DNA of 64,000 nucleotides from Toxoplasma gondii ME49. Taxonomy: Eukaryota; Apicomplexa; Conoidasida; Eucoccidiorida; Sarcocystidae. The notes under the pieces were generated by a model. It had not been told where the DNA came from, did not search any database, and saw nothing but the letters and a program-made list of their open reading frames with translations. Both the position numbers and the translations under genes were made by a program. The stretch is from assembly GCF_000006565.2 (NCBI RefSeq), contig NC_031479.1, positions 4,552,289 through 4,616,288 of the forward strand, given 5' to 3'. This document shows, one piece after another, positions 19,891 through 56,642 of this stretch. Each line of letters starts with the position of its first letter. Within the stretch, counting starts at the first letter, position 1.

Positions 19891-22800
19891 TTACTGATTC
19901 AGTCTGAAAATTGCTGCTTTCTTGCGGTTGAACAGGGCGGCCGCTCGGAGAGGGACGCCTCCATCTGCAGAAGCTCTGCTCTGGTCAGAGAGTTGTGAAT
20001 TCCTCTCTTGTTCTTTTTCAGCAGCTTCTGCTCTCTTCTTTGCAAGCATTGCTTGTTTCTCCTTTTGTTCTTTACGTCGCAGGGACTCTCTCTGTTCCGC
20101 AAGCTTAGCAGCTTCTTCGTCACGTTTACGTGCCTCCTCTTTACGCAGCTTCGCTGCTTCTTCCTCAGCCGTCCTCTGAGCCTCTTTTTTTCTCTTCTCT
20201 TCTTCTGCAGCCTCGCGTTGTCGCTCCGCTTCCTGTTCTTCTTGGGCACGGGCAATTTCTACCTCCTTCCTCTTCCGCGCCTCTTCAGCTGCTGCCCTCG
20301 CCTTCTCTTCCGCCTCCTGTTTTTTCCGCTGTTCTTCCTCTTGTTTCCTCATTTCTTCTGCCTGCTTCTCACGCAGCTCCTTCTCTTCTTGGATACGCCT
20401 CTTCGTCTCCAACTCTTCCTGAGTTCGCTGCTCCAGTAATTTCTTTCGTTCTTCTTCTGCCACCATCTTCTCTGCCTCGGCTCTCTCCCGAGCCTTCCTC
20501 TGCTCCTCTTTGAGCTCCTTCCTAAGTAGCTCTTCTTGGGCCTTCTGCTCTTGTACCCTTTTTAACACAATCATTTGTTCCAAATGCTGATCGGCGTCAG
20601 GGACATCGCCCGGAGCAACGAACACACTTGTCGTGTTCGGCACAATTTCCCACCACGGGCCTGACAATGCCATAGTACAGAACAGGAGACAAACACATGG
20701 CCCGATTACAAGTCGATGCATGTAATGTGACTCACAGTGAAATAAATATGTATACTTCTACTGACTTGTACAGCAGGCTGAAATTAGGGCCACGGACTTT
20801 AGAGCTATCAAGTTTTCCGTATTCCTCGTGGGCGAAGCCACCGCACAAAACACCCACAGAATGAAGAAGGTACTATCCCGCACTCGACGTCGTTCGTTTC
20901 CGTCCACGAATCTGACTGACATTCTTCGTCCAGGCTGCTTTGATAGACGTAGAGCTTTATTTTTGTCATTCATCACCACATCAGCTATACGGCAAAATTG
21001 TGCTGCTGCGCAAAGGCTGGTTGCGACCTACCAGAACCCCAAAAGGGCCTCTTGGTGAACCGGTACAGCGTCTTAAGCACTCGGACAGCTGTAGGAGGAT
21101 CTTTATTTTTGAATGGGTTGTCCGCTAAAAGCCCAGTAACACTTGGCGAATTCTGGACCACAACAGTTCACGGTTGCACACATGCGCAGGTAACGCTTAT
21201 GTCGGATACAGGAATATCCGTCGACAAAGGTCTGCGTGGGTTTACAAAGTCAGCGTGAGAATTCCGAGTGGAACATTAAACAGAACACAGGATGCCGCTA
21301 TCCTTCATCGTGCACCGATGCGTACATGTCTTCATTCGGATTCTGCCACAAAAGAGCGTGAGCTTGTTCATCCTTCTTCTCTTCCATTCCTCAAAGGCTG
21401 TACATTGCTGGTCTGCAACAGCTGCATCACCGCACCCGCATGCACATATATACTTGAATGTGTATATACCTCTATATTTACACGTTTCGTCTACGCATCA
21501 CTACGAACTGGACCTGTTGTAGTCGGTCCACTGCTGGTTTTTCTCTCGAAGTGGTGTCGTTCGTACTTGAAGCAGCTTGCCGAGAAAACGTGGGAACCAT
21601 GGATGCCGGACGCCAACTATCTCAGGAATGTCCATGGGCACAAACCACTGCAGCAAAAAAGAGAGAGGAATCAGCATATAGAAACGCAGCGCCTGGAGTC
21701 CTCAATCTTCTTTTCACAACTTACCTGTGAACGCATTTTCCGGCTGCTCACAAATGCGAAAACCCACATTTTTACACTTTCTTGAAGAAAAACAAGCGCG
21801 TCTTTAACATGTACCCACCACAGAAAATACGTCTCCGAGTCGACTCTTTTCTTAGGCACCACTGAAGAGTCGCACACAGCTGTCGTCGAAACCGAAAAAG
21901 AGATACGTACCATCAGCCAATCTAGGCGATAGTGGTAAGGCGAGATGAGGCACGGGCGGCGGTTGACATCACCAGGCTTGCATTTGAATTCGTAGTTTAT
22001 CCAGGTGCTGTTCTCGTCCTAAAAACACAATTTTCAGAGCAGCCGAAAGACGATGCAGGTGATTGTCTTTTGTATACGACACTCACAAATCAAAAGAGGA
22101 CGTGAAAAGTGTATGCAGTAAGAAGCAATCTTTCAGAAGCAAAAAAGCAAAAAACGAATGCAAGCAGTTCCGCCAAATGGAGACTGGAGACAAACGCTGA
22201 ATCTCGTGCATCCTGTGCCGGAGACGCCTGTCTCGACCACGCTTTGACGACAGGTAATGCCTTCAAAGACTCTTGGAATACCACTATTTTGTGTTTTATC
22301 AAAGAGAGGCATTGATCTTGAACAGAAGGACGCCTACGGGTGTTGGATCGTCGGTTCCTTGTACAATGAGCTCCCACCGCTCCTGAAGAGAAAGCGACGA
22401 GTAAGGTGGATTTTCTCAATGCAAAACGGATTTCCTGGGTCACCCACTCGTTAAATAACAACACCACATCACGATTTTAGATTGTTTGCTACAGAATGCC
22501 AAACCTGGTACTAATTCACTGCGCTAAATAACAGTCTGAATGGGATTTACTAGCACGTTATGCGGTGTAAAAGGTAACTGCATCCAAAACCGTTGTGTCA
22601 GGAGTTATATGTCATCCGGTATATGTGTAGGAATACTATCTGAGAGTCAAGTTTTGACAACCCGGTTGTTAATTGTTCAACGCTTCATGACTCGAAATGA
22701 AGTCAGTGGATGGATGGTTGGCTATTACTATGATCTTGTTTATTGCAGCTAGTGTCATTCCACAAGCTACATATTTCTTCTATGGTAAACGGCACTTGAG

Positions 22801-25800
22801 AATAATAATATGAACAAGGGTATTTTCTCGCTGAAAAAGAGATTCCTCGATTCACACAGATACATCTCTCCACACGCGCGGTGAAGTGTGGAGGATCTAT
22901 CGGGTACAGAGGAAAAGAGACCAAATGTGCAGTAGGTACGTCCACGAAAGAAACTAAGTTCTTTACAGAACAGCCAACCTCCACCCAGGTCCACTGAGTC
23001 AGGTCCACTCGGTTTTGACGCCTGTGAAAAGCAATTACCGTTGTGACAGTGCCGAACGCCCCATATGTATTCAAGATGTCGAAGGGATTTGCCATGCTGG
23101 CGTTCATGAGCTGAAGAGAAACAGCAGAGAAGAGCTGCAATCGTTGCGAGTGGAATATGAAGGAGCCTAAGACATCCCATATCGCGAAGTATACAGGCGT
23201 ATCGGCCACCTGTCTTCCTTTTTGATATTGGCAGGCCGACGAGTGAAAAACGAAACAGATGCGACAAGCCAGCGGCCGCACACATATGCGTCTTAGTGTA
23301 CGTAGGGAGACGTAGTGATCTCGTAGTGACTTGGGCTGCAAATTTACATAGACGGAAATGGATCAATGCATCCAAGGGCAGTTCCACAAGCATCCTCGAC
23401 GCACGGAAAATGTGGAGTGACATACCGATGGAAATTGAGAAGATAAGAATATGAACACAAACCCAGACTCGAGGTATAGATACTGCTAAACGGATGGATG
23501 TTTGAGACAGACATGTGAAACAAAGTTTTCTGTGATCACTCCTCAGTGTTCATCCCCGAAAGTAGCAACATGGGCGTTTGGTGTCACACGAAGCATTTTC
23601 TACTCGTCGTGTTCTGTATCTGGACACAAGAGAGGGTGGCGTCGCAGTGGGGACATACCTGGTTGGGAGAGAGGAGGTTTGCTACCACTGGCACAGACAA
23701 GCTGATGATGAGGAGAAGTAGGAGTAATTCGACGTGAATTTTATAGACTAAAACCGCATTGGAAATAGTCTTGTAAGAAAATGCAAGAAGAATGGTGAAA
23801 AGAACGATCGTGAGCCAGAGGCACGACGGCAAGGGGCCGTACTTGTATAGCGAAACAGCACTCCACAGAGAAACGACCAGAAGAACTAACTCGGTAAATA
23901 CATTGGATGTGGCAGTTTTCGTATAGAAATGAGACGACGTCGCAAGAGCAAGACACAAGAAAATTATGGCAAGGACACTCAACAGAGACGGAGATTCAGA
24001 GCTCGTCGCGACGGCCATCAACACAAGTACTCCGATGGACACAACTAGTTCGAGCAACATGCTCTTCCAAGATTCCTCCATATCTCGCTTCATTCGATTT
24101 CTTGCACGGGAAGGGAAAATGGTCCGTGGAATCGAGCGGAAGAATTGCAGTATCCTCGGAGAATACCAGCAGCAGCAGGTGCGCGCGGAGGCTTGGTTTG
24201 AATCATCATCAGTGTCCACAGACCACTCCAGCTGACTCCCTGGGGAAACGATATCGACAGAGCAAGCCTCTACAAAGAGTGGAAGACCAAGTGGTTCCAT
24301 TCCGCGAATGTGCCTTTGTACGTTTTAGATCCGAACAGGCATGCAGTTACGTCTTCAAGGATTTACTACGGTTCCTCTCCGCAGCATCACGCGTCGTCAG
24401 AGAAAACCACACACCTATGTTCAAGGCTCCCGGTACGCCTCATGATCTGGCAGTCCAAATCTACACTTACGTGTCTCTATGTCGCTGTTACATTCACGAC
24501 CACAGCTCTGTCTCAGAACGAGGCAAAGCGTGTATCTGCTACCGATACGTCTCTAGATCCCGTCCAGTATGTACTTGTTTAAATCATTTGACTCAATCCT
24601 ACAGGAATGCTAGGGCTTTGTATACGATGAGACGAGACGATGGACAGTGACCCGCAACAGGTGAGCCAGACCGTTCTGCAGCGGCAAGTATCCTGGAAGC
24701 CGTGGCTTTACACAGAGCGTCTCTTTTCGACCGAAGCGCATCTTTTCCCTGTCTGCCGTGAATTCAGCATCACACAACATCGAATGGGGATTGTCTCTTT
24801 TCCGTCCACCAGGCACTAACTCACCTCCATCGTTGAGGAGCGCAGCAGCCTCTGGGTCCTTGACAGAACCCACTCCTTGGTGTTCATTCGTGTGTTCTGA
24901 ACATGAATCGACAGGCCAGGCCTGGTGCTTAGGCAGCGACCAAGCTCCTAAGCATCCCTGAAGGAGAGGCTGAAGCCTCTCCAGTGTTTTGGAAGGGAAG
25001 AGACAAGAGACGAAGTTGTCATCTAAGGTCATGAGAGCCGGCAGTATCGAGAGGTGGTTCAGGAACGAGAAATTTCCTGAGAAAATAATCGCTCCCTGAA
25101 AAAGGATTTGTGTGACGCCACCGACAAGGCGGCACTGGCGAAAAGGAATGAGGAGGAGGAAGGGGAAAACGCACTCAACGACGTGGTTCACAATCACTTG
25201 AAAAGCGTGAGCAGTATGGGACTGATTGTGCATGTACCACGAAAAGGGATTAGGGATCGGCATCGTTTCGTAGTGGTAGTCAAGAGCCGTTAGGTCCGTC
25301 CATAGGTTGTCGTTGCGGAGTTTAATCAGCCCCGCGCCCAGCATGAGCCGAAAAAGCAGCCAGCGGTTTCCCCACACGCAGATTTTCGGCGTGGGCCATG
25401 AGGCAGGAAGGCGGGAGAAACTCCAGAATGGGCATAGCCAAATGGAGAGGAAGCCGATCTCAAGGAGCTCGCTTTCCCAGCCGAAGGCATACCACTCTTG
25501 GCCGATGCTGTTCACGCTCTGGTAAAGTATCCAGAGAAACAGCATCACGAACCCGTTGCTCCCGCCGAGTACGCCTGTCACCAAAGAGACGAGGATACCT
25601 ACGAGAGCACAGATAGTGAGAGGGAAGGAAAGCTGCGAAATCGGTTTCGGTGACGGAGGGAATGGAAACAGATGCGCCGGTATCTTTCTGTTCCAAATGT
25701 CCTATGCTTGCCTTTCCAAAATAAAAACTGGGAGCAAGACGCGATTCACAGGTCACTCACCTAGAAATGGGAGACAGTGTATCCAAAAGTCATTGGCCGG

Positions 25801-27233
25801 GAGGAAGAGAAACAGAGACGGGAAGGCCTTGATTTTTGTCCAGGTGTCTTCCTCCGCCAAGACTTCCCTGATGGAGTCGGCGTGGGTCTGTGCTGGCAGA
25901 ATGCCATCGGAGCCAATAAGCCCTTGCGCCTGCGAAAAAGAGAAATGTGGGGAAAAATCGAAGAATATCGAAGACAGACAGCCGACTCACTGAATGATTA
26001 TCCACGAGTGTTGGGGAAATGAGAATATTCGCTTTGACGTGAATTCGGAAAAGACTGGGACTCTTTGAAGCATTCGAGATGTCGATACAATTCCAGTATG
26101 CAGCGTAAAGAAAAATGTAAATCCGCTTCAACTCACCTGATTGAACGCGACTAGAAAGGCGACGAAGTACACGAAGGACAGCGCTCTGATAAAAACCTGC
26201 CACAAAGAAAAACGATGCACAACAGAAAACAGACAAACACGCAAGTGAGCACGAATATAGCCAGCATTGCTAGGGCAGGTTGTTGGTAGGTGAAACTCAA
26301 ACAGTTCCTTCTGTGTCGGAAGCAGTTGCAAACAAGCGGCCCATTTGTGTGCCTGAAAAATCGTGACTGGCAGTCTGTTGTTGTTCGCCGCAACGAAACA
26401 GGCGAAGCATGTTTGCGATCCCAGAGGAATTTACTAAGTCACAGCATGACTATAATGTTACCGTCTTCCAACAGAAATGGAAAATGACAGGTGGCAGAGT
26501 CTCCCACTTTATTGTCTGGTTTTTGTGACACGCTTCCTGTCTACTGATGAAATCAAGCAACGCTCTCCGCCCCCATCCGCCTCCTCGTCACCAGGCAATG
26601 TGTCTCAACGCATCCGAAAAAGAGAATGAATTTTCATCACAGTATCTAGTGTTGAAGCACAACAGACGCTCTCCCCGTTCCGCCACCTAATTACAGTCTA
26701 GTGTTCTTCCGACGAAGAACATCATGATGAGGGAAAAGTTCCGTTTTAAACCACTCCTTTCCCTCCAGGAGTCAACAAGACTAGCGCAGGAGATTGTACG
26801 TAACAACGAAGCGGTATTGCATTGAGCTTCTGCAGCTAAATCATTCCTCAACAAGGGCAGCTCTGGAAGCAATGAAGCAAGAAATGGGACCTTCACAAAA
26901 GCTGCAGAAAGCAGGCGAAAGCCTTGTTTAAACCCGAGGACCGCTGATAGCCAGAAATTGGTTATGCCTCCAGGCCCTTACGATTCTGGTGAGCCAATAC
27001 GTAGACTTCATTTTCTCCAGCATTCCTGGCTCCAAAGCGCGCCGAGTTTCTCTGCAGGACCACGTAGGGTCTGCCATCTGAAGAAAATGGACGACGCTTC
27101 GACGCCACCAGGACTTTTCCCCGTTGGATAGACCATCAGAAAAGTTCTGAAAAAACCAACGGTCACGAATTGAGGCCCCAAACCCCACCTTTCCCTCCAT
27201 TCCACCCCTGCTTGTCTCTCGCGGTGGTTTCAT
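19891..27233 (-). CDS. Lipase maturation factor family membrane protein with C-terminal coiled coil (paralogue A)
   Basis: Eleven exons: 27233-26982, 26196-26137, 25929-25761, 25598-24825, 24269-23659, 23110-23039, 22382-22338, 22018-21911, 21647-21567, 21152-21032, 20660-19891, giving about 1020 aa. Family landmarks are AFNQAQGLIGSDGILPA (residues 101-117), a multi-pass membrane core with PKICVWGNRWLLFR and GLIKLRNDNLWTDLTALDYH (162-418), further helices (to 622), NPFDILNTYGAFG, and NYEFKCKPGDVNRRPCLISP YHYRLDWLM (exon 8). LMF proteins are ER multi-pass chaperones that help dimeric lipases and other secretory proteins fold, so an ER role is inferred. Exon 11 starts GPWWEIVP and continues as a 200-residue Glu/Lys/Arg coiled coil ending in a DGGVPLRAAALFNRKKA motif. 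The first exon could instead begin at the ATG at 27077, which directly follows a good acceptor (shorter form about 968 aa, or an extra upstream exon). An in-frame TGA lies just before the 27233 ATG. Divergent from paralogue B. Confidence 0.9.
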
Positions 27234-30200
27234 GATTCACAGATAACGTTTTTCTTTAGGTCGATATAGGGTAGCAATGGCAAAGGGCAAGTGGCCGTGC
27301 CGAACACACCGTAAGGAGTCACGGTGGAAAAAAACATAGCTCCCCGGGAGCAGACAGTGGCCTTGCAAGCATCTAGTGCTCCAAAAGCGAGCGATAAATA
27401 GAACTGTGCGACTTCAAGTTCCCGACTGCCAACACTGCTAGCTCACACGTCTTGAACCCGGGTGGCTCCGACAAGACACACGGCAGGCAGCGAAAACGGG
27501 AAGTTCAAAGACGGGTATTTCCGGAGAATTGTAGGCCACACAACTCATTCACTAGACACACGGTGGAAAAGAGTTTATGCAGGACAAGGCCCCCAAAGGG
27601 CGGGTGTGGCATCGTTGATCGAGGCTGAAACATCGTTGGTTGCCTCAAAGAGCTGGTAAGGTGCAAAAATTCGAGAATTCGTGACGCAGTGGATGATCCA
27701 ACTCTAAACGGCATTTTGAAGTGCACACTTCAATGATTGTCCTTTTTTGGGCTATCTGGCCGAAAAACGCGAGAAGCACGCTGAAGGAACACGACGCTTG
27801 AAATGCTAGCCACTACTGGCCATGTCTTCTGCAGCCTCTGTCTAGCGGCCCGCAAAAACGTTGTATGTCTCCCCCGCAGCCGAAAACGTAGAGGCTGAGT
27901 TATTCGGACTGTCGATGGTTGCAAAAGAGGCGGAAAGACGTATCCAGTAATCGCCTCGTAAACATAAAATAATGGTTGCAAAGTACTTCTTTCATCCACG
28001 ATTTCTCTCGTTTTTCGTCTACGGAAACGGCGGACCGCTAGTCCGCCAGTTGACTAAACTCAGACGGAAGGCTCCTGGTCAAACCCATATCCCTCCCTCC
28101 ACACGAACGGTGTGCTGTTTCCCTCAGATACTTACACCGTTTTTTGTGAAGGCTCGAAAGGATTGGAATATGTAATGAATTGCCCATATGGATGTGTTGC
28201 GTGTCAGGGGAGCAGATGTACCCGTCGCGTGTTCCACCTTGACGCAACGAATCAGCCTCGAATCTTTGGCTCTTTGGACTAACTGAGCAAACTGCGTGAC
28301 CAGATCATCTCACACACTGTGGAGAATTGTGATAGGGTACTCATGTACGGAAGAAGAGACAAATCATACCATTGGGCAAGATCGCTTACGATAAACTATG
28401 TTGTACCGTTATCCAGCAGATGCCGACAAGCTGTTTTTGTAGATAAGCACCCGCCGAAAGACGCGGGATGCAACACTTCATCATAATGTGCAGGGCTCGA
28501 AAAGAGATTTTTTTACGATATTCCCCAGATGTACATGAGTAACCAGTTTGAACTATTCACTCCATTGCTGTGGAGGTCATGCGAGAGTTTGGGACTGAAA
28601 ACTCAGGGAACATACAACCTACGTGATACACGAATGCAGCATGGGCTACGCCTGTAGGCAAAAGGTACTCGGTGTCAAAAAAGCCATAGGGGCAGTCTTC
28701 AGGAACTGAAACTCAGCTTCAATAGGAAGGTTCATGCAGTGCAGTTCCCCGAAAAAAACACCGTTGTTATCCTTCGTGCAGGGGACCGCCGATGGTACAG
28801 TAACTGGAGCAATCCACGTGTCGCTAGTGCCACTCATCTGCGTCGGGTGCTGCTACACGCTCCTTATGGGAAGAGCAGCTCTCGTTTTGCCCTGCTTGAT
28901 TTCATGTACCACCTGTTGACAAGAACCGAGGGCACGCGTCAATTGAGGAAGATTCTGTTGCGGAAGCCCGCTTCCCCTGATTGAGGTGGTGGTTAGAACA
29001 TGACCAGGTTGTCGAGGAATCAGTGATGATAGAAACCGAATGTGGCCTGCTGACAAAGGACGAGGCGAGGTAAACAGAAATCCGTGACGGAGGTCTGTGA
29101 TGCCTGTAGCGCCACAGAGTCATTTGTTTCCATGGTAGTATATATTCGGAGAACGCAGTGGCTATACGAAGCAGATATAAAATCAAACCTGTCATCCAAG
29201 AGGTTACAGGCGTCCCGTCGCCGCATTGTTGCCCATTGACCAGGGAGTTACCGAAAATCTCTGAAATACCGTGTGCTAGTCAACACGAAAGTCCTCATTC
29301 AAGTCATCATTTAGGAAACCTCTGAGCCTCTGCTACCTTCTCTAGGGCTATCCGCCTTATGCTGTATCTTTCGCTTCGTCTACTACTGTTGATCTTGTAC
29401 TTCAGCGGCTCGTGTATTGCGGCGGAATCACAATTTCGTGTTACCCGAAGAGGACAAATTCTCCAGAAGGTCGGTTGGTTTCAAATTAATGCCCGATGGC
29501 CTCGGCGGCCTGGAGGGCTCCCGATGTTTCGTCACCAATGGGAAATTGAATTCAATACGGAAAAAAACGGAAAAGCACAAAGGTTCGTTTTTTTGGCACG
29601 CTTTGCCCTTCGGCAGCTCGCTGCATAGAGCCCCGCTGAGAGCTGCCACGGGTAACAAGACAGATTGTCCTAGCCCAGCCGCCAGCTTGTCTTTGGTTGC
29701 TTTCGACACTCCGTTCCACGGCTTAGCGGGAAATTCAGATTTTGTCCGATTCTGTGGAAAGGGTTTTGTGCTTTTCTTTTCCCTCAACGGAGTACTCAAG
29801 GACTCAAAAAGAGGCACTCGACCTGTGTCTCGCGGTCCTGCGGCACGCACCGGTCCTGGCGGCACGAACAGCTCGATGGCCCGACAATCCCGCAACTTTT
29901 TTATCTGTGAACGGTGGTTTTCTTTGGCTCTATTCTCATATCCGATGGCGGAATTTCAACGCATGTGAAGACCATAACCGCACTTTGCGTTACCAGGGAA
30001 TTTGAGTGATCTCCGTGATGCCATCCCGGGCCTTGTCTGGTCGAGGAGCTCGAGAGCCAATGACGTTTGCGTTAGATGAACCGTTGTCATTGATTGTGTT
30101 CCAATTCGACCTCAAGGAGGGATCAAGATTTGGTCGTCGCGCAGTTTCATGTAGACATTCTCCGTCGCTGTGACACAGGGTTCTCGGAAACGCCTGTACG

Positions 30201-30462
30201 TTTGTCTGGCTAGATGAGAGTGAGGGTGCAACGGCGACGCTCGGGCCCCATACCGTTCATTTCGTCGTTTTCTTTTCTTCTTGTTTCACTCGTTCTACTA
30301 CGTAGACTTTATGCTGTCGTGCCCACAGTTTCCATTTTTCGCACACTGACGGCGGTGGTCTTCGCGGCGGCAAAACACCTTCCCGGTTCGGATCGTGCTA
30401 GCGAGCCCACAGATATCACAGAGGCACCGGTAACGTTCTCTCCGTTTCCCTGAATTGTCAGC
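27234..30462. other. Divergent intergenic region between the two LMF genes
   Basis: About 3.2 kb between the two start codons, presumably carrying both promoters and 5' UTRs. No sequence palindrome or obvious inverted repeat joins the two genes, so any duplication breakpoint is old and eroded. A 79-codon frame at 30214-30453 with hydrophobic stretches is in the same frame as LMF paralogue B exon 1 but ends in TGA three codons before its ATG; it could be an upstream ORF. Overlapping plus and minus frames at 29.36-29.97 kb have no recognisable features. Confidence 0.4.
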
Positions 30463-33400
30463 ATGTATTCCTCCCCTCAGTCAGAAGAGGCTAGCCTCGT
30501 GAACAGTAGGGGCATCCGAGATGAAAGTGGGCCTAATGGATTCTCTATTGGATCTGCAACAGACACGGCCCTGAAGGCAGGCTCCCCGACAGGAAAAAGC
30601 TGGAAGCAACTGAGCCTCAACCTTGGGCGGCGCGTGTGGGACGCACTGGATCCAACATGGTCTTGCGCTGAGAAGAGACGCCGCCTGGACCCGGAGACTT
30701 TGAGGAAACTAAAATCAACGTACTGGCTTTCACGGATTGTGAGTAAAGGCCACGCTCAGCAAATTCCTGCCGGACTGGGTTCTGCGACTGGGCTAGTAGA
30801 GTTTCCCTTGTATGGTAAAAAACTGGTTATGACGTGGAATTATATGTTCACTCAAAACTTTTCTTTTCCACAATCACAGCTATCGCAGCCATGAATGGCT
30901 TCAGGGAGCTGTTTTTCCTGTGCTCCATCTTGCGGCGTAATGGGCAACACCTCCCGGTGTAGCCCTCATTCTTGCAAGTGTCCATCATCTCCATATGTTT
31001 TTTCAGACACGCTGTTCCCGCTCGCTGAATTCAGATCTGAAGTGCATGCGTAGGAACCAGAATCGAGGAGTGCCACACTGGTGAATGAATCTTGTGCTCG
31101 TTCTCATATTCTAGGGTCGAAACACCAAGTTTTCACGCTTGAAAGGAGCCGGAATAGACCCGTAGATTTACTTTATGTTATCAAAACCATGCTGGAAATG
31201 GAATCTGGATCCTCGCATACTTGGTTCATGCACCTTGCTCTGACATGTACCTAATGGATTTGATCGCAAAAATAGCGGTCACCATTCAGTAGCAACCCCA
31301 TAAAGACTGCTTTTCTTGGTGCTGTTGTGAACATGCAGGTTTTTCTGCGCGCGTTGGGATTTGTTTATTTCTTCGCGTTTCTTATCGCCTTCAACCAGGT
31401 GAGAGTCAAAGAGACGTTAGACAGGTCTTCGGTTCAGACTGGTTACGTTTTCACTGCGGGAGCAAACGTGTAAATCCCTAACTTTCGAGCCCCATCGACT
31501 CAGCCATTCGGGAAACGATTCTACACGCAATAGAGACAAGGCCAATTTGGAAGTAAGATAACTAGTTCCTACAACTTCCTCACTCTGTAGCACCCGATTG
31601 AGCAACTCGCCCCGGATCCGCGTTGTTCCTCGAACTTGCAAACCACCATCTATTTTTCGCGGAGAGTTGCCAAAAAGGTGACTCAATTTCGCAGCAGGTT
31701 GATCTGAAAAGGATCCTAAGGGGAATTTCGTGTAATTCAGGAATCATTGTTGAATGCAAGCACTTCATGGAAAACTTTATGTTGAGAAGGCATTATAATC
31801 GACCACAGTTTCCCGTGTTCCCCTGCACCCCCATTCCTGCAGTCTCAGGGACTCATTGGGTCCGATGGCATTCTCCCAGCATCGGATTACGTGGCAATGG
31901 TGAAGGACTCGTTTGCCGACGCAGAGGCGTGGCAACGAGTCAAAGCATTTCCTTCACTTTTTCTCCTATTCCCTGCAACGGATTTCTGGCTGCATGCCAT
32001 CCCTTTTGTTGGTACGTCCACTTTAATAGGCATGCTAGTGGATATCCCGTCAGAACAGCTCTGTTGTGGTCAAGTGCGCAGTCACAGACATTTGCGAGTT
32101 TCCTCGACAGTCTCTCAGGAGGTGCAGTTCTGTCGCTGTCATTTGGGTGGACTATCTTATGTGGACAGTGATTACGCTCTATAGTGGCTTCTGGAAATTC
32201 AATTACTTCTTTTGAAGGAGACAGTGGATCGTTTCTGTTTTTGATCTGTCACAGCAGCGGGCCAGCGATGTCCACGACCACTAGTAGCCAGCCTTCCCTT
32301 CTCATTCATCCAACTGTTGATCATGCTTCTGTGCAGGGTATTCTTCGAGTAGTGTCTATCGGACATCACATCACCTCAGTGGCTAAAAAGTATACATCCA
32401 ATCCGTTTCACGACCTGAACAGGGGATCAGAGTATACCAAGTTGCACACTTGAACAGCTGAGCAAGATCCCAATATCCGTTCAGACTGTGGTGAAGACAA
32501 GAGGAGCACCTTGTGGCAAACGCGTTTGGCGGGAGTACTTCCACGCGTCGCCAAAAAGGGCGTTGGGAAACCTTGGTCTGATGGCATTCGTGCGTGTTAG
32601 GTGTGTTCTTGTCTTGCAGGTATGATCCTGTCGCTGTTCATGACCATACAAGGTGCCAGCAACGGTTTCCTTCTGTTCCTCCTCTGGATCTTGTACCAGA
32701 CGGTGAACAGTGTGGGCCAGGCCTGGTTTAGCGTCGGGTGGGAGGCGCAGCTTCTCGAGTTGGGGTTTCTGGCCATCTGGATGGCCCCCTTCTGGAGTTT
32801 CTCGCGTCTCCCTCCTTCCTGGCCGACTCCCAAAATCTGCGTGTGGGGTAATCGCTGGCTTGTCTTTCGCGTTATGTTGGGTTCTGGACTCATCAAGCTC
32901 CGCACAGACAGAGCTTGGAAAGATCTGACAGCGCTCGACTACCACTATGAGACGCAGCCGCTGCCGAACCCATTGTCCTGGTACTTCCAAAACCAGTCGC
33001 ACGGCGTTCATGCGGCGCAAGTTGTGATCACACATATTGTCGAGTGCGTCATTTCTTTCCTGGTCATTCTTCCCTTTCGCCAGTGTCGGCTCTTCGCCGG
33101 CATAGTCCAAATCGCGTTCCAGGTCGGCATTCTCCTCTCAGGAAACCTAGCCTTCCTGAACTACTTGACAATCGTGTCGGCAATCATGTGCCTCGACGAT
33201 CACTTTCTCACCTGCCTCTTCCCGTCGGCAATTCTCAGTCGCCTCCCGGAGCTTGTTCGCGGATGTGCGGGCTATTGGTCGCTCCCTCAGATCCAGGCAT
33301 GGCCATTCCCACAACTGTTTCCTGGCGAGGAGCACGGAAAGGGCAAAGGACGTCAGGCGAACGACAGGCCCGAAGCTGAGGCGTCTTTGCTCGACAAAGA

Positions 33401-36400
33401 TGCAGGTGAGCCTTACATTTCAGGTTGTTGATAGAGTTCACTTGCTCGACATAAAAGCAGGCTGGTGAGGTCACGCCTCTGCCAACTGTCTATGCGTTAA
33501 ACGTGCATGTTCTGCGGTGGTTCCGTCTCCAGAGAGCGCTTTGGTCATTAGCTCAGTGCCAAAACGGACGGTTTTTCCTCGAGTGGCATTTCTTCGGCCC
33601 CCAGTGACTGTGTCACTGGATTCAGAAGAGCCTGTGGCGGTTGAAGAGTATGCAGAGTCGTCGCAGAGAGCTGCCTGAGGGCGACAGTCCACACACGAGG
33701 CTCTACTCATGTGTTGAATTGCGTGTTTGTTTACCATAAATACAAACGAACGATGTGCCTACATCTGTAAAGGTTGACACGCTTCCTCCTTGGCTTTCTA
33801 GAAGAGCTTCCGTAGAGGCAGCTGCTTGCTGTATACTCGGATCACAGGCGTGTGTGTATGTTTGCTCCCAGGCAGAGATGAGACTCTTCCTTTTAATGCC
33901 GCTACAGACGACAGTCTGGACAGCCCCCGAAGCTGCTGCTGCTGGTATCGACCGTACTTTCCCCGGATTGTGCGTTCCCTGAAAATTCCATCTCGCGTGC
34001 GGAAACAAGTGAAGGAGGAGATCAAAGAGAACTGGGGGAAAATGCTTGCTGAGGTGGTGGCATCTGTGGCAATGCTTACATGCATGGCGTTTGTGACCAA
34101 CCCCGCGACTTCGGCTGTTTGGATGGTTATCGCCGTGTTTTTCCTCGCCATCATCCTCTCGGCCTCGTCCACGTTTTTCACAAACACTCTCGTGTCAAAT
34201 GCGTTCACGGAACTCGTCCTTCTTATCGTCACCCTCTGGAGCTGCATCGCCATATACCAGCACGGCCCGGCTGTCTGGTCTGTTTGGCTCACCACCTGTC
34301 TATTTACGGTTCTGATTGCGTTCGCGTACACGACCCTGACGAACGCAGCACTCATATTCAAAATCCATGTCGAAGTCCTGATCTTCCTCCTCATCGCCGC
34401 TCTTTCCGTCCCCGTCGTCGCAAATCTGATTTCACCAGACCAGGTAGTTTCCAACTTTTCAAAGAGTTCGTGATGTAGATGGAACATATTGATTCAGAAA
34501 CAGGTCATGCCGTCAACGCCACGTTTGTGAATGTACGGGACCGTTGCCCTCTGCATTTTTGTACTGAATCTTGTTTCTGTTTTTCTGCGCCGAGCTACTT
34601 CCGTCAGATCGACATCTGGCAGCGCCACTCAAGTACAGGCGAATCTTGGCGTTGTTGCTTCTTTTGTAGGAGTGGTTTGCAGCCGCCTCTTTCCTCGTTA
34701 AATGCACACAGTTAATTTCAACAGCAGGCCGCCGACGGGAACGACTTGAATACCATGTCTGTGTGCGTGTTGTCACCAGGTTATGGATTCAGATCTCGGA
34801 AATCCCTTTTCCGTGGTCAACACACATGGAGCCTTCGGATACATTGGCAAGGTAGGGAGTGAAGCCACGTTGGATGCGTACATTTTCTTCACCTCCTGTC
34901 TTTTTGTTGTCGAAGCATGTGGACATCAATGGGAGCACCGGTGATTCTGGCTTAGGGTCCATTAGCAACGAGCGAACTGCGTCATGAATCGACGGCATCT
35001 TCTCATTTGGCCTCCTGCATTATTTCTCCTCGGGTATCTCTTCTGTCTCATCAAAAGAAGAAAACTTCCATCTGCGTCAACTTTGTTGCCCCTAGGGAAG
35101 GCCGTTTGTATATATTCATGGCCCTCCATTACATGCAGTTGTCCCCATGTTACTGTCGTGTGACAATTCATCACCACATCCCAGCTCCGGTATGTTCCAT
35201 TCTTCTCCTCAGGAACGGTACGAACTCATTATTCAAGGCACCAATGCGTCTTCACCGGTACGCAATATTTTCATCTGTGGCTGGGGCCTCCACAGACAGT
35301 CCTGACCCCATCTCACATCATCCTGCACCACTTTCGTGGCAGTATTCCTTGAGTGCGACGATTGGGTTACTGCGAGAGCACCTTTAGAATTCAAACAGTT
35401 CACTATCACCTTTCTTCTGAGAGGCAGCGGGGGTGTTTTGGAGCACTACTGTCGCACTTGAATTGAATCGATCAGTGAAGTGTACTACCTAGCGAACCTC
35501 CTTCAATGTACACGAATCCCACTATATAGCAAGCTTGCTGTACGCTGTCTGATTGGTCTAGATATTTTCTCAAGGTGAAGAGAGCTCGGCCAATGCGTGA
35601 GCTGGCATTTTTCGGCCCTTCTGTTCGTTGACACTACGAGAGTCGTCATTGTATCGTGTCTCCCAAATATTCAGCCACGGTGTACAACTTCAGCGTATCG
35701 GGACCTTTAGAAAGCATTTGCTACCGAAAAGGTCACATCTGATGATTTCGTGGCAGAACGTGTGTTGTCACCTGAGAGACGAAAGTTCGACGGGGTTGTG
35801 ACACGAAGTTCTAACACTGAAAGCGCCGTCCGATTCTCCTGTATGCTCGTTTCTCTATTTTAAAAAGAGAGGCTTCATTCTGTTTCAGTTCTTGTGACTG
35901 CTTCAATAACCCTTCGTGTTATTCATTTTCGAATTCTGTCCCTCTCACAGACCCAGACCCTGTATTGGCAAAATTACGAGTTCAAGTGCAAACCTGGAGA
36001 TCTCTATCGGAGACCCTGCTGGGCTGCGCCCTATCACTACCGCCTTGATTGGCTCATGGTAAGCGTCAGGCGTGAATAAAAGACGGAAGACGGAATTGAC
36101 GAATCGGATTCTCGTTGGCATGACGCCTGGTGGGTGACTGGAAGACCCCATTGCATGGCTATAGAAGTCCACAGCAGTCTCAGTAGTATCGTAAGCCTTC
36201 CATTCATTGCCACTCGTAATTCTTTGTCTGCCTCATCAACACGAGGGACACTTCCCCATTCACTGTTGAGTCCAGTGACTTTTTGCGAGTAAAGCGTGCG
36301 AACTCGAGACGGACTTCTCATACAGCAAAGATGACGGAGGAGAGCCCTTCGTTCAGGGAAAGCTAAAGTGGCAGTGAGCCACAGAGTGTCAGAGTGACTA

Positions 36401-38490
36401 GGATTACGCCTATCACGGTCAGCATCTCTTTTCTCTGAAATTACTGTCGACATGATGTGGACACACGTGGGAAAACGACTTGGATGACGTAGCAGTGTCA
36501 AAACACCGTCTAGTTTTTTTGCTGTGTGTGCTTGTGTAATTGTGTTCCTAGTGGCTAGCTTCTATGGGTGACAAGGAGACAGTAAAAGATATGCATCCCT
36601 GGCTTTCCAATTTCCTCTCCAGACTGCTTCAGGTGAGAGGTTCACTGTGTGTCTTCCTGATTCTATTTGCATGTTGATCATCTAGGCCATGAAAGAAGCA
36701 CATGTTTGTATTTCTTATTACCCAGGGGTAGTTGTCGAAGCGCACTGTTAGGAACCCTTCATTCAGCAGGAGAATCTCGTGTTGCATTACTTGATGTCTT
36801 GCGCATCTGGTGTGGAATACTTGACATCACCGTTTTCTAGATATTCTTTTGCCGATACACTAATGGCGTGTTAACGAAACAAGCCAGCTATGGAAGCATT
36901 ACAGTCATGTTCGAGGACAGTCTCAGTTCTTATAGGCAGCTACAAGCTGGAGCTAAACGGCTCAGTTATTGAAAGTATCCCAGGCATCGAAACTGAGTAT
37001 TATTTCTCCTTGAAACGACGTGAAATATACTGAATGCATTTTTACGTCCAGAACTCGAAAAGCGTGACAGGACTGTTGGCCCATAATCCCTTCCAGAACT
37101 CCGACCCGCCGACTGCGCTTCGAGTCCTTCGCATTCAGTATAGGTTTACCAAAGGCCCCGTATTTGGAGGAGGTAGGCTAAACCCAAAGCATCAGACTCG
37201 GGTTCGTGTGCGGGTACCGAGCCCAGTTTAACATCAACTGCGTGCTCAGTATTCAGAAAACGGCAGCTCTCTTGCGCTCGAGGTTAACGTCTACCCAGCG
37301 GAGTCGAACAGGTTTATCTTGACAGTTAGAGACAACAATATGAGCATGCAGAAGAACGACCAGCTTAACGCTTTGTTCTGGAAGCGAATGAACGTAGTCT
37401 GTGAGCATAGTATGAAGTCCGGTAAAGTCTGGAAGCTCCAGTTACCGGAAACACATCGGAATGTACGGGGCAAAACGATTTCCATAGCTGCGACACGGAC
37501 GAGTGCCTACGCCGCAAATCCTGGAGTAATCGTTTGGATCAAAACAGTGGAAAGAAGCGATTGTTAGAGCTAACTTGTGCATTTTCCTTTCCAGGACCTT
37601 GGTGGGAGGTCGTGCCTGAGACCAGGGAGCTTTTCGTTGCCCCGTCTCAGGTGCCCGGAGCTGCTGCACACCTCAGGAAACAACTGTTGATTCTTCGCAG
37701 ACGAGAAGAAAAACAGAGACTCGAGCAGAGACGAAAAGAAGAAGCAGAGATAAGAAGAAAGGAGGAAGAGGCCTTCAAACGTCGTAGAGAGAGGGCCATG
37801 AAGGAAGAAGAACGACGAAAGCGCGAGGCAGAGGAAGCCGAGAAAAGGAGGATCGCTGAGCAAGCGCGCCAGGCTGAAGACGAGAAACGCATCAGAGAGC
37901 AGGCGGAGGCAGCCAGAAAAGCTGAGGAAGAAGCGGTGAGGAAACAAATAGAAGAAGAAAAGAAACGCCACGAAGAAGAGGAGAAGGAACGTCAAGCAGA
38001 AGAAGAAAGAGAACGCCGAGAACAACAGGAAGAAGAAGAAAAACGCCGAGCCGAAGACGAGAAGAGACGCAAGGAAAAGGAACAGGCCACGTTGCTGGCG
38101 AGGCAGCGGTCTGAAGAGGCGCTAAAAGAGGCAGAGAAGAAAGCTCGAAAGGATGCGGAAGAAGAAGAGCGGAAGCGAAAGGAAGATGCTTTACAGGAAG
38201 AAAAGAGGCAAAAAGAAGAGAAAGAAGCTGAGGAAAAACGGCGAAAGCAGGCAGAGGCACGCAGGGAAGCAGCGCGCGCCGCGGCTGAAAAGGAGTCTGA
38301 GAAAGCGAGACAGTTGCAAGAGCAAGAGGCGAAAAGGAAAGCATTGGAGGAACAAGAAAGGAGAAAAGCTCGGGAACGGCAGCGCTCTGCTAGCAGTCAA
38401 GTCGCGGTATATACAGCTCAACCCCACGACGGCGGAGGAGTGCCACTACGGCATGCTCCGTTGTTGACTAGGAAGAAGCAAGCGCTGTAG
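30463..38490 (+). CDS. Lipase maturation factor family membrane protein with C-terminal coiled coil (paralogue B)
   Basis: Eleven exons: 30463-30738, 31339-31398, 31843-32011, 32620-33405, 33872-34443, 34780-34851, 35213-35257, 35951-36058, 36552-36632, 37052-37172, 37595-38490, giving about 1061 aa. Every junction has GT-AG ends and matching phase. The exon 1 C-terminus (LDPTWSC...LKSTYWLSRI) leads into a membrane helix (exon 2), then SQGLIGSDGILPA, a multi-pass core with PKICVWGNRWLVFRVMLGSG and DYHYET, a second hydrophobic block in exon 5, NPFSVVNTHGAFG, ERYELIIQG, and YEFKCKPGDLYRRPCWAAP before YHYRLDWLM. These are diagnostic of LMF1/LMF2. Exon 11 begins GPWWEVVP, then about 250 residues of Glu/Lys/Arg coiled coil, ending with DGGGVPLRHAPLLTRKKQ. 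Exons 2, 3 and 6-10 have exactly the same lengths as in paralogue A. Role inferred: ER membrane chaperone; clients unknown. The ATG at 30463 follows an in-frame TGA. Confidence 0.92.
37680..38400 (+). repeat. Low-complexity purine-rich stretch coding for the coiled coil of LMF paralogue B
   Basis: The coding strand is almost entirely GAA/GAG/AAG/AGA/CGA codons, producing an uninterrupted Glu/Lys/Arg heptad-like helix. The matching stretch in paralogue A is about 20600-19990 on the minus strand. The purine bias is a consequence of coding, not an independent repeat element. Confidence 0.75.
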
Positions 38491-40889
38491 GGAGACCCGC
38501 AGTCTCCTAAGAGGGCTATCAAATGTTTCGAGGTTTCCTCTTGCTTGTTTTACCTAATGTGACGAATCTGTTTTATGGTGTTGCCGGCCGAAAAGTAAAT
38601 GCTTACGGCCGGTGTATTGAAAGGTTCCAAGAGGTAGTCTCTGTGAAACGCAACAGAGTGTCTCTCTGCTTGGCAACTTCCAATTTTGTGTACGAATTTC
38701 TCTAGTGTACGGACGACACTCGGGCAAATATGTATTGGGGCCGGAAACACGATGTCCCTTCTCACACGACGGCCTCTATCGTTGACTCTAATGGGTTCAC
38801 GTATTATGGTTTAAACGAGATGGCAGAAACGAAGTCGACTTACTGGGTGTTCTGTTTCCGAACCATAGTGTACCACAGGGAATATTCAGGGATCAGTAAT
38901 CTAGCATTCGAAGGGAGAGTTTTGCGAATGCACCTGAGTTAGTCGTCTAAAATTGCCGCAGATCTGACGAACCACAGCGTGGCAAATGGACAGCAGTCGA
39001 TGCGAGATGTAACATGAGTATTTCACCTGCTCTGTTGTGCGTCACGTTATTTGGTGTTTGATATCTTTCTCTACATTCATCATGGTCTTCTTGTATGGTC
39101 AGGCACGTATCCACACTCTGCCTGTCGCACGTGTTGGACATTCGGCGAGACCACTTCAGGTTCTCGGCTGGAGCCAGTTCCACACGAAAATCCATCTTTT
39201 TCGTCTCCATCGTCTCTCAGATCATATCGTTTTTACAGCTCATTCAATGACTTTCTGGTTGCGATCCCAGTGTTTTCAGGGGCAACACTTTACGTCCGCC
39301 AAAGAAGTAAACAGGGCGGGCTAGAGAAGTGACCAGCTAGCCTGGATAGGCAGGTGACACTTGTGTTTGCATTTGACAATCACGAGTACTTGGCACAGCG
39401 GCAACCTTGAAAAGTTTGATTAACAGCGGTTCAAGGATGACTCTCTCGTTCATGATTGCTTCGTGCCAGAAGAAAGTGTTAGGAGTGGCTGTTCTATGGG
39501 TTGCAAAAAGTAGTCAACGGTTGCGTAAACATGCCTGGCCGGTCCGGCAACGGATACATGAACGGGAAACGCATCATCAGAATTGAAGAATTTTCTTTTG
39601 GAGAGTTGGTATACGTCGCCCCACTCAGTTTACAGGAAACTTCAGCACGTTCTTTTGCGGGTTTAAGGCTGGCTCAGCAAAATACGAAGCAAAGTGGACC
39701 TACGTCTCTCGGAGGTTCATCTAAAGCCTGATTTATGCGGTGTCCAGGGGTTCCCCCAGTAGCACCCCCGAAACTCGCTAGTCCCTATTTGCTAGTACAC
39801 AGCCGAGAAAGCTAGTGGCTGTAGTCAGCAAATATAAAACGGAACCATGCTTCCACGATGTCTAAAAACAGGTAACTCCACTTATATAAACATCAAATCG
39901 TGAGAATAGAAGCACACAAGAATACGAAAGAGGTGGCGCAGCTTTGTCAATCCAAGTCCCCAGGCGAGCTAGTGCTCGCCCAATTGCGACGTGTGTACGG
40001 AAGCGCCGAAACATGGCCCTAGACAAATGAGTTTGGAGAGAAGAAAAAACTCAGAATGGCGTTTTTTCGTCATTGTCGATTTTCGAGTTGTAGGGGAGTC
40101 TTTCGAACGAAAAACTACCCACTGAAATAGGTAATTTCTGCCAAGCCACTGGGTCATCTACATAACGACATGCATCCGGAGACCTTGACGCTGGTCACCG
40201 TGGACACACCACTGCTTGCAAAAGTCTGTGATGTCGGCTGTACCCATGGACGGAGTCCCGGAGCAAAAATGCCTCGTGTTCGCTAGTCGTAACTGTTTTG
40301 CCAGGCTCGACTTCTGTGCAGTGTATTTTACTTCGCCAATAGCTGGCTGGCGGAGCATGCACAGCCAGCATGCACGCGTAGTCCTGGATTTTTGGGGGGT
40401 TGCGGCTTCTTTGAGTTGCGGTGTTTTCTGAATCTGCTTTTCTGCGTGAAAAATTCCCAAGCAACAACATTTCATGCCCTCTGGACCCCGAAAAGTTGCC
40501 TGCTGCATGACAGATGGACGGGCCCTTGGTGAAGCGGGCGCGCTATCACGGGACGCATGCTCATCCAGTGAGGCAATCTTTTCAGAAAATCGAGGTAGTG
40601 AACAGTATTGTTCGCTTGAACTAGTAGTGTTGAGTGAGGCGTCAGACTCAACGTTTTAGTGTGTTTCGCTGTTGTGCATCAGCAACTGCTATTTTGTGAG
40701 CTGTATGCTACGGGTAATCTAGCGTGGTTTCTGCTGTTCTACTAAAATCAGAGTTGTAATCCTTTTCACTATACTGGAGTCAATACGTGTAGATTTATCA
40801 CATTGTTACCCTCCTACCGTCCCTAGTCCTGTGCGGACCCGGCGCCTCTCCCTGTAGCAAACATATTTTTCCGATGTTTTTTGGCAGGA
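38491..40889. other. Intergenic region between LMF paralogue B and the mitochondrial-type protein
   Basis: 3' flank of the LMF gene followed by the promoter region of the next plus-strand gene. The only clear signal is a pair of GCATGCAC words at about 40355-40375. Open frames on both strands are short and featureless. Confidence 0.4.
40355..40375. promoter_or_regulatory. Direct repeat of GCATGCAC, candidate ApiAP2 site
   Basis: Two copies of GCATGCAC separated by six bases, about 520 bases upstream of the ATG at 40890. GCATGC-type words are known promoter elements in Toxoplasma and other apicomplexans and are bound by AP2-domain factors. The regulatory role here is inferred from position and sequence only. 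Confidence 0.4.
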
Positions 40890-55070: not shown

Positions 55071-56642
55071 ATGATTATTGGGTGTCCAGTCGAACGTAAA
55101 CACGATGAGGGCCGAGTAGGACTAGCTCCGGCCGGCGCTCTGGAGCTTGTCAAGGCCGGCCATACGGTTCTTATTGAGAAGGACGCAGGAAAGAAGGCGC
55201 ATTTCACCGATGAAGATTACGTTCAACAAGGGGCTGAGATTGTTGCGTCCGCGGAAGAGCTATATGGACGCTCGGAAATGATAGTTAAGGTACACCAACA
55301 TCTTCCGGTGCCACAGAGCAGTTTCCAGCCTATTTCGCTTGCCCCATGAAATTGGAAAAAGGGTCACTTTCTGCTCTTCTTCATTTTTGCTTCAGTCCCC
55401 TCAGTGCTAAAATAACTATCTATGGTTTGTACACTTGTACTTCCGACCTCTGAGTCAGTTTAGTTCCTGCCTGCATTACGGGTTGTGTTGCCATTTCATT
55501 GAGTTGCTGTATGTAGGAGTAGCGGGGCCTAAGCGCAAGATTTCTCTCGTGCTTCCTCTCGTTGTTGTTAACATGAAAGCCATTTTCTGAAACGTTTTAC
55601 GAAACGAGACGTTGTGCGCTTGTGCTGTGATATGAAAAAATGGTGTCGCTGATGTACACCGTGTGGTGCCCCCGTTTGTGTAACACAGGTGAAGGAGCCA
55701 CAGCCGGATGAATGGAAGCTCGTGAAGTCGGGACAGATACTTTTTTGCTACTTCCACTTTTGCGCGAGCCAGAGTCTCACGGAAGCAATGCTGAACAGTG
55801 GTGCAATATGCATCAGCTATGAGACGGTTCAGAAGGATGGGCGTTTGCCCCTTCTCGAGCCCATGTCAGAGGTTGCCGGCAGAATGTCGATTCAGTGTGG
55901 AATGCACTTCCTGGAAACTCCTCAAGGAGGAGCAGGAGTAATGCTATCGGGATTGCCGGGTGTTCGTCGCGGTCGTGTGCTTATTCTTGGAGGTGGTGTT
56001 GTGGGAGCAAGCGCGGCCTCCGCGGCGGCTGGTGTTGGCGCGGATGTCGTGATCCTTGACAAGAATGTGGACCGCCTTCGAATGCTTGCGAGCATCATGC
56101 CTCCAAATGTGAGTACTCGGTGCGCCGGCGAGGAAGCTCTCCTGGAGGAACTTTCTCTGTGCGACCTTCTAGTTGGCGCAGTATTGCTGCCGGGTCGCAA
56201 AGCGCCCAAGATCGTACGTCGAGAGCACTTGAAGCGAATGAAGCCTGGTTCTGTTATTGTTGACGTCTCCATTGATCACGGCGGATGCGTGGAAACCACA
56301 CGTGTAACGTGCCACCATGACCCGATTTATGAAGTGGATGGAATTATTCATTACGGGGTTGCAAATATGCCCGCTGCGGTGGCGCACTCTAGCACGCTAG
56401 CTCTCACTAACGTCACGCTGCCTTACGTCCTTCATCTGGCGGAGCGTGGTTGGTTGCACGCGTGCCTGGCGGACACCTCCTTAATGTTGGGATTGAATGT
56501 TGCGAAAGGGAAGGTCCTTCATCCAGGCGTTGCAGAGGCTTTCGGCCTCAACAGCGTTCCGCTGAGTGAATTCCTCGAGAGAGCTCAGGCGAATGAAAAT
56601 GAAAAACGTGTTGATGGGCCAAACGAGACACGAAACGCATAA
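55071..56642 (+). CDS. Alanine dehydrogenase (NAD+)
   Basis: Two exons, 55071-55289 and 55689-56642, joined phase 0 across a 399-base GT-AG intron; product 390 aa, close to the about 370 of bacterial enzymes. It interconverts L-alanine and pyruvate plus ammonia with NAD (EC 1.4.1.1). Start MIIGCPVERKHDEGRVGLAP is the canonical N-terminus. Substrate-binding Arg15, Lys75 (in VKVKEP) and His96 (in FCYFHFC) fall at the same numbers as in well-studied bacterial enzymes. The Rossmann loop GGGVVGASAASAAAGVGADV (174-193) is followed by an Asp at 197 favouring NAD over NADP. The DVSIDHGGCVETTRVT and HYGVANMPAAVAHSSTLALTN segments are the family signature. A short charged tail follows after about residue 370. 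No signal or transit peptide precedes the catalytic start, so a cytosolic enzyme is inferred. The family is mainly bacterial, which raises the possibility of old gene transfer, now intron-bearing. Confidence 0.95.

Follow-up and report, generated by a model that had tools for sequence, protein, structure and literature searches.

Two divergent genes in the window (the whole analyzed stretch of 64,000 nucleotides of Toxoplasma gondii ME49 DNA) form an inverted duplicate, in which gene B is a paralogue of gene A whose ten introns match those of A in mirror order. On balance, our data favor the interpretation that A, which is the rhoptry protein ROP14, and B, a copy made after the Eimeria/Cyclospora line had split off, are tailed, paired rhoptry membrane subunits derived from the lipase maturation factor (LMF) family. 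The genes, the stretch between them, and their exons are located as follows:

30463..38490, plus strand: gene A, TgROP14 (TGME49_315220, DQ096565.1), 11 exons, 1061 aa
19891..27233, minus strand: gene B, TGME49_315210, "rhoptry protein, putative" (by gene order), 11 exons, 1010 aa
27234..30462, no strand: stretch between the start codons, 3229 bases, presumed shared upstream region
Exon 1: A 30463-30738 (276 nt); B 27233-26982 (252 nt)
Exon 2: A 31339-31398; B 26196-26137 (60 nt each)
Exon 3: A 31843-32011; B 25929-25761 (169 nt each)
Exon 4: A 32620-33405 (786 nt); B 25598-24825 (774 nt)
Exon 5: A 33872-34443 (572 nt); B 24239-23659 (581 nt), or from 24269 (611 nt)
Exon 6: A 34780-34851; B 23110-23039 (72 nt each)
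Exon 7: A 35213-35257; B 22382-22338 (45 nt each)
Exon 8: A 35951-36058; B 22018-21911 (108 nt each)
Exon 9: A 36552-36632; B 21647-21567 (81 nt each)
Exon 10: A 37052-37172; B 21152-21032 (121 nt each)
Exon 11: A 37595-38490 (896 nt); B 20660-19891 (770 nt)

All 20 introns of the two spliced models, on both strands, begin with GT and end with AG, and the two stop codons end at positions 19891 and 38490. The spliced model of A has an open reading frame and agrees with the deposited ROP14 (P0001) at 1056 of 1061 residues; its length of 1061 aa, the published numbering of aa 619-1061, and the cDNA primers all fit TgROP14. Splicing of A is supported by a published TgROP14 cDNA primer that spans codon 619 at the E5/E6 junction and does not occur in the genomic plus strand. 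When exon 5 of B begins at 24239, as in the deposited protein P0005, the product has 1010 aa and five mismatches to P0005. B was identified by gene order with TGME49_315260 (alanine dehydrogenase, at 55689) as the anchor. The original prediction of equal lengths for exons 2, 3, 6, 7, 8, 9, and 10, unequal lengths for exons 4, 5, and 11, and agreement of all intron phases was borne out, as all ten introns agree in position and phase on the protein alignment; exon 1, which it did not mention, is also unequal. In the pairwise alignment made with the longer exon 5 of B, intron 4 was offset by 8 columns in a gappy stretch.

The two proteins are related and well diverged, as had been proposed, with 526 of 1000 aligned residues identical (53%). 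Nucleotide identity at codon positions 1, 2, and 3 of the pre-tail region was 0.64, 0.76, and 0.37, respectively, and the NG86 synonymous distance was undefined, so that synonymous divergence between A and B is saturated and not estimable. The introns had looked unrelated by eye, and blastn of 28850-42000 against 28850-15000 was consistent with this: matches with E <1 were confined to exons, and introns and flanks gave only matches of 13-23 nt (E 1.9-6.5), similar to those in a control stretch. Within the presumed shared upstream region, an extra gene was rejected, as its two ORFs of more than 150 aa have no Pfam domain, and bidirectional-promoter symmetry was rejected with only three weak inverted repeats of 14-15 nt between the starts.

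A third LMF gene, copy C (L005, P0118), lies 0.5 Mb from the pair in the same genome and has seven introns, with splice junctions placed by hand anchors. A fourth LMF locus is L012. It could be argued that the equal exon lengths of A and B reflect an ancient gene structure common to LMF genes, with no local duplication, and introns 1 and 2, hence the 60-nt exon 2, do occur in copy C as well. These are, however, the only positions in common (2 of the 7 in C). The remaining eight A/B introns are not in C, which indicates that the other matching exon lengths are a feature of the pair and not of LMF genes generally; since the intron pattern of C already contradicts a common ancestral structure, and the trees join A and B as sisters, we give that explanation hardly any credence. 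A and B are thus divergent neighbors that share introns beyond the family level and group as sisters.

To refute local duplication, the copies would have to group with different outside species, and the trees came out otherwise: A and B were sisters (support 96/94) adjoining the Eimeriidae, and they were still sisters (93/95) when the columns of A residues 190-360, part of exon 4, were removed. The duplication therefore probably took place in the Toxoplasma-Neospora-Besnoitia line. An earlier event, before the split of Eimeriidae and Sarcocystidae and followed by loss of one copy (B) from the Eimeriidae, would fit the finding that a grouping of A with the Eimeriidae was not rejected (AU p 0.062, or 0.083 without part of exon 4), and also the slightly higher identity to E. 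flavescens of A proteins (49-50%) than of B proteins (45-48%). However, the best trees unite A and B, the grouping of B with the Eimeriidae was rejected (p 0.005, or 0.024 without part of exon 4), and one ROP14-type protein per species was present in four eimeriids among the matches listed (that of E. necatrix being partial), which makes the earlier date rather improbable. The estimate best supported by the trees places the duplication after the divergence of the Eimeria/Cyclospora line and before that of Toxoplasma and Besnoitia. Besnoitia, another coccidian genus, also has both copies (P0003, P0004), each from a contig of 4,743,155 and hence presumably from one contig; the divergent layout is that of the T. 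gondii pair. An identical tract of 88 residues in the two Besnoitia copies is a candidate trace of gene conversion. These results support the proposal that an LMF-family gene was duplicated locally, in inverted order, long ago in a coccidian; all ten introns are shared, and third codon positions are saturated.

Family membership was established by a Pfam scan of the first 795 residues of each protein. A scored 212.2 bits for LMF1 (PF06762) and 130.4 bits for LMF1_C (PF25179), and B scored 219.8 and 141.7 bits, against cut-offs of 27 and 34.2. "Lipase maturation factor" thus stood as a family assignment and did not stand as a working identity, as A is ROP14 and B is annotated as a putative rhoptry protein. 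A, B, the eimeriid rows, copy C, and all seven animal LMFs compared retain the LMF1_C Cys pair (C673, C683). ROP14 was already known from the rhoptries, and its homology to LMF has been published, stated for the Plasmodium orthologue in the literature excerpts consulted. Those excerpts describe TgROP14 as a multi-spanning rhoptry antigen and as a possible transporter or predicted complex member; they contain no mention of a head-to-head paralogue, a helix tail, or an end motif.

ROP14-type proteins differ from animal LMFs in several additions, which are listed here with the LMF1 domain:

32730..33212, plus strand: LMF1 domain (PF06762) of A, residues 206-366
33928..33948, plus strand: membrane-proximal Cys cluster R-S-C-C-C-W-Y of A, residues 450-456
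24163..24183, minus strand: Cys cluster R-T-C-C-C-W-Y of B, P0005 residues 438-444
33991..34335, plus strand: four extra helices of A (AlphaFold2), residues 471-585, probably membrane-spanning, before the last LMF membrane helix
37702..38433, plus strand: single-alpha-helix (ER/K) tail of A, residues 800-1043
19963..20553, minus strand: single-alpha-helix tail of B, P0005 residues 791-987
38434..38451, plus strand: GGVPLR C-terminal motif of A, residues 1044-1049
19945..19962, minus strand: GGVPLR C-terminal motif of B

The Cys cluster, written as R[ST]C[CF]C[WY]Y, and the GGVPLR terminal motif were each present in 10 of 10 ROP14-type proteins and in none of 264 other retrieved proteins, counted among the matches listed (for one search, the best 120 of 357). 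No Plasmodium, Sarcocystis, or Cystoisospora protein was among these matches, which does not imply absence from the genomes. The tail of ROP14-type proteins is a predicted single helix of 197-269 residues, and AlphaFold2 gave a helix at low confidence. In A, the residues E, K, R, Q, and A make up 86% of the tail, and pairs of E with K or R at i+4 numbered 43 compared to 23.9 +/- 3.4 in shuffled sequences; in B, the corresponding values were 85% and 28 compared to 16.4 +/- 2.9. The i+4 count was at least 2.6 SD over the shuffle mean in all ten tails. A coiled coil was rejected, as the hydrophobic heptad signal was not above shuffles in A (attained by 159 of 500) or B (471 of 500); it was strongest, and borderline, in E. 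necatrix (30 of 500) and E. stiedai (56 of 500). The tails of A and B thus have the sequence features of a single alpha helix (ER/K), namely richness in E, K, and R, an excess of i to i+4 charge pairs, and no hydrophobic heptad.

The AlphaFold2 model of A places the extra helices at residues 471-505, 512-534, 537-561, and 565-585. This region has no aligned residues in the seven animal and two bacterial LMFs compared, is filled in A, B, the Eimeriidae, and copy C, and is partly filled in the two chromerids. Copy C scored 53-61 in this region against A, B, and Eimeria, values matched by 0 of 1000 shuffles in all four comparisons. Homology of the region in C with that in A, B, and Eimeria is nevertheless only modestly supported, because C against Vitrella also scored 40 (attained by 46 of 1000 shuffles). 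Like A and B, copy C belongs to the LMF family and has the extra helices; it differs in lacking the tail, GGVPLR, and the Cys cluster. The best-supported history is one in which an LMF ancestor gained the four helices, also present in tail-less C, and then the Cys cluster, the long single-helix tail, and GGVPLR. The literature consulted held no description of these additions to a carboxylase-like fold.

Animal LMF1 (e.g. P0018) resembles A and B in having both LMF1 and LMF1_C domains with the same Cys pair, and the core helices follow the same order in the models of Cavia LMF1 and A. It is an ER protein without the four extra helices (which are not in the Cavia model), the Cys cluster, the helix tail, or GGVPLR. 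Vitamin K-dependent gamma-glutamyl carboxylase (GGCX) came out as the same fold in a same-fold test, at 13% identity, and a PDB search by sequence gave no solved-structure relative at E 0.01. The likeness to GGCX is one of fold only, and carboxylase activity of A or B is not claimed. Among the papers listed in a literature search (12 of 51), none had both terms (LMF together with GGCX or HTTM), which does not imply that the link is unpublished.

In the interpretation that we favor, A and B would be polytopic proteins of the rhoptry membrane and would act, as a heteromer, as paralogous subunits of a single complex that also includes RON1. The carboxylase-fold core would bind a client or partner protein in the way that LMF1 and GGCX do, the Cys cluster may anchor a cytosolic loop, perhaps via palmitoylation, and a lumenal rod of ~30-40 nm with the end motif could dock a partner. 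Retention of the pair may reflect the change from an ancestral single-gene assembly to one made of A and B, or the adoption of separate partners by the two proteins. Rhoptry location of the B product is putative, based on its annotation and on ToxoNet Table 1, where both proteins, detected by proteomics, fall in one co-elution cluster. Two retained copies had suggested different clients or life-cycle stages; the clients may differ, and different stages found no support: tachyzoites and sporozoites both express ROP14 (PMC5376300, PMC3261165), and 315210 has a ratio in a proteomics table of infected cells and shares the ToxoNet cluster of ROP14 (PMC8158437, PMC11219001).

If A and B were instead two ER-type folding factors, LMFs proper with different clients or stages, the strong domain scores and the conserved Cys pair would be expected, and LMF1 loss gives a more oxidising ER in the part of PMC9114485 consulted. 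The published rhoptry location of ROP14 makes lipase maturation in the ER unlikely as the main role. According to the excerpts consulted, the published TgROP14 orthologue of Plasmodium (PFF0645c / PF3D7_0613300) is in the rhoptry bulb, has at least 7 predicted membrane helices, and surrounds the parasite after invasion; the Cys cluster and end motif set these proteins apart from the 264 others, and tail-less copy C could fill an ER role. We therefore regard a pair of ER folding factors as unlikely. A channel formed by ROP14 and its paralogue in the vacuole membrane after secretion, a published proposal (cited in the consulted parts of PMC3458004 and PMC6176090), agrees with the many membrane helices and the late release in Plasmodium; the excerpts consulted name ROP14 as a candidate vacuole-membrane pore and give no mechanism, and we consider this role improbable. 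For the favored reading of paired rhoptry subunits, the LMF/GGCX fold with the shared helical rod and end motif opens concrete, cheap tests of ROP14 and its neighbor, in which single-gene removals may be masked by the paralogue.

A more elaborate version, which we offer tentatively and regard as doubtful, is a rhoptry-adapted branch of the LMF/GGCX fold whose rod, capped by GGVPLR, would serve as a spacer or tether, either within the organelle or in the newly formed vacuole. In the Toxoplasma group, the ancestral single-gene assembly would have given way to an obligate A-B heteromer whose genes still exchange sequence through gene conversion, and the "ROP14" of free-living chromerids would be an ordinary LMF and no rhoptry forerunner. 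The chromerid proteins (P0107, P0229) belong to the LMF family and differ in lacking GGVPLR and the Cys cluster. Vitrella fills the four helices at 74, 100, 52, and 19% of the alignment columns, and a hydropathy scan of its extra-helix region found no membrane stretch besides the last LMF helix. The chromerid "ROP14" proteins of the literature may be ordinary LMFs, and their reading as rhoptry forerunners is put in question.

Gene A on the plus strand and its head-to-head paralogue, gene B, on the minus strand were spliced in silico. The window corresponds to G000:C13:4552289-4616288, and C13, at 6,623,461 bases, has the size of T. gondii chromosome XI.

19891-38490, both strands: A and B, two divergent 11-exon genes

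Every intron in the two models has GT-AG borders. The predicted match of exon lengths and intron phases was confirmed by the spliced models, with seven exon lengths exactly equal and the positions and phases of 10 of 10 introns coinciding. Two acceptors are usable for exon 5 of B. The deposited protein follows the downstream acceptor (24239), and the resulting model encodes 1010 aa, with 5 mismatches to that protein.

Gene A is TgROP14, and its model agrees with the deposited ROP14 (P0001) at 1056 of 1061 residues. In a paper on a TgROP14 test strip, aa 619-1061 of DQ096565.1 were produced (PMC9367252); the forward primer given there spans the A exon 5/6 junction at codon 619 of the spliced model and is missing from the genomic strand, and the spliced model ends at residue 1061. 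In published work, ROP14 is TGME49_315220, TGME49_315260 is alanine dehydrogenase (PMC5376300), and a dephospho-CoA kinase gene is reported upstream of the alanine dehydrogenase gene (PMC8764084). Two domain matches were located in the window:

52273: CoaE
55689: AlaDh_PNT

These positions, with ROP14 as 315220, indicate that gene numbers increase rightward, so that B, the left neighbour, should be TGME49_315210 by gene order. ToxoNet Table 1 gives 315210 as "rhoptry protein, putative" in cluster 76, to which the ToxoNet text assigns two hypothetical proteins besides ROP14 and RON1 (PMC11219001), and a proteomics study of infected cells lists a ratio for TGVEG_315210, "Putative rhoptry protein" (PMC8158437).

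The A and B proteins are 52.6% identical, and third codon positions are 37% identical, i.e. saturated. The introns had been described as unrelated by eye, and the introns and flanks of the two genes indeed had no similarity beyond chance-like matches. Beyond A and B, genome searches yielded a third lipase maturation factor (LMF) gene at a distance of 0.5 Mb, as well as two weak matches on contig C3.

G000:C13:5083000-5092999 (L005), exons 2553-8833: gene C, tail-less LMF gene, 8 exons, 1063 aa (P0118)

C has only introns 1 and 2 in common with A and B, and shares the extra helices with ROP14. In T. gondii p89 it, too, is labelled "putative rhoptry protein". The C3 matches (L010, L011 and L012; G000:C3:1125743-1126710) are to the LMF1 domain, at 31.3 and 27.6 bits against a cut-off of 27, and are possibly a fourth LMF gene.

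Trees were built on 23 of the 274 retrieved proteins. The ROP14-type proteins formed a single clade (100/99), within which the eimeriids (4 rows) formed their own (100/100). Two chromerid LMFs that were compared differ from the ROP14-type proteins in lacking the Cys cluster, GGVPLR and the long tail. Separate origin predicts that the copies group with different outside species; A and B were sisters (96/94), also after removal of the columns of A residues 190-360 (93/95). Forcing B with the eimeriids was rejected (p 0.005 with all columns, 0.024 without A residues 190-360), while forcing A with them was not (p 0.062 and 0.083, respectively). The placement of C was weak with all columns (48/78); without those of residues 190-360, C joined the ROP14-type clade as its sister (95/96), and Vitrella branched next (86/89).

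The two Besnoitia besnoiti copies (P0003 and P0004), whose contigs are equal in length and presumably one and the same, have 88 identical residues in exon 4, starting at A residue 197, and over that stretch these paralogues are more alike than orthologues. Elsewhere the longest identical run was 15 for A against B in Toxoplasma; between Toxoplasma and Besnoitia it was 22 for the A proteins and 34 for the B proteins. None of 20,000 shuffles reached 88, the longest shuffled run being 30. The simplest reading of the tract is recent gene conversion, and an assembly error may instead account for it. A B orthologue of 951 residues (P0006; 79% to T. gondii B) lies on a 4093-base contig; since 951 residues are encoded within 4 kb, the record is probably a spliced transcript of a related species.

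The fold family, architecture and pairing of A and B are established. Published work already describes ROP14 as a protein located in the rhoptry and homologous to LMF; for the pair, tail, motifs and GGCX fold, no description was found in titles, abstract openings and passages, which does not prove novelty. The Plasmodium orthologue occupies the rhoptry bulb and is not released until after invasion (PMC3458004), and proximity labelling recovers it together with PfCERLI1 and PfCERLI2 (PMC8828742). A cytosolic N-terminus and six membrane-spanning modelled helices before the loop would leave the Cys cluster cytosolic, and five further spanning helices would put the rod and the C-terminal domain in the lumen, the location that the conserved Cys pair in LMF1_C would suggest. 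The membrane stretches counted by a plain hydropathy scan number 10 in A, 8 in B and 9 in Eimeria, so this topology is tentative. Inside the rhoptry, a part in redox chemistry or in the folding of clients may be considered, and the predicted ToxoNet cluster suggests that ROP14, RON1 and 315210 form one complex.

Many bacterial or unnamed LMFs (e.g. P0055 and P0070) carry an extra PF04134 domain (DCC thiol-disulfide oxidoreductase), a hint that the family may originally have had a redox function. In a eukaryotic protein of 1310 aa (P0232), PF05057, a lipase-like domain, is fused to an LMF, perhaps uniting lipase and maturation factor in a single chain. Other features of the window were as follows:

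4308-11282, minus: frame of 2324 codons without interruption, low-complexity and Ser/Arg-rich in appearance
12131-14389, minus: protein kinase (kinase domain 255 bits)
48510-50112, minus: two parts of a MYG1-type exonuclease gene (PF03690)

A PH-like stretch before the kinase domain is borderline (24.7 against a cut-off of 25.1).
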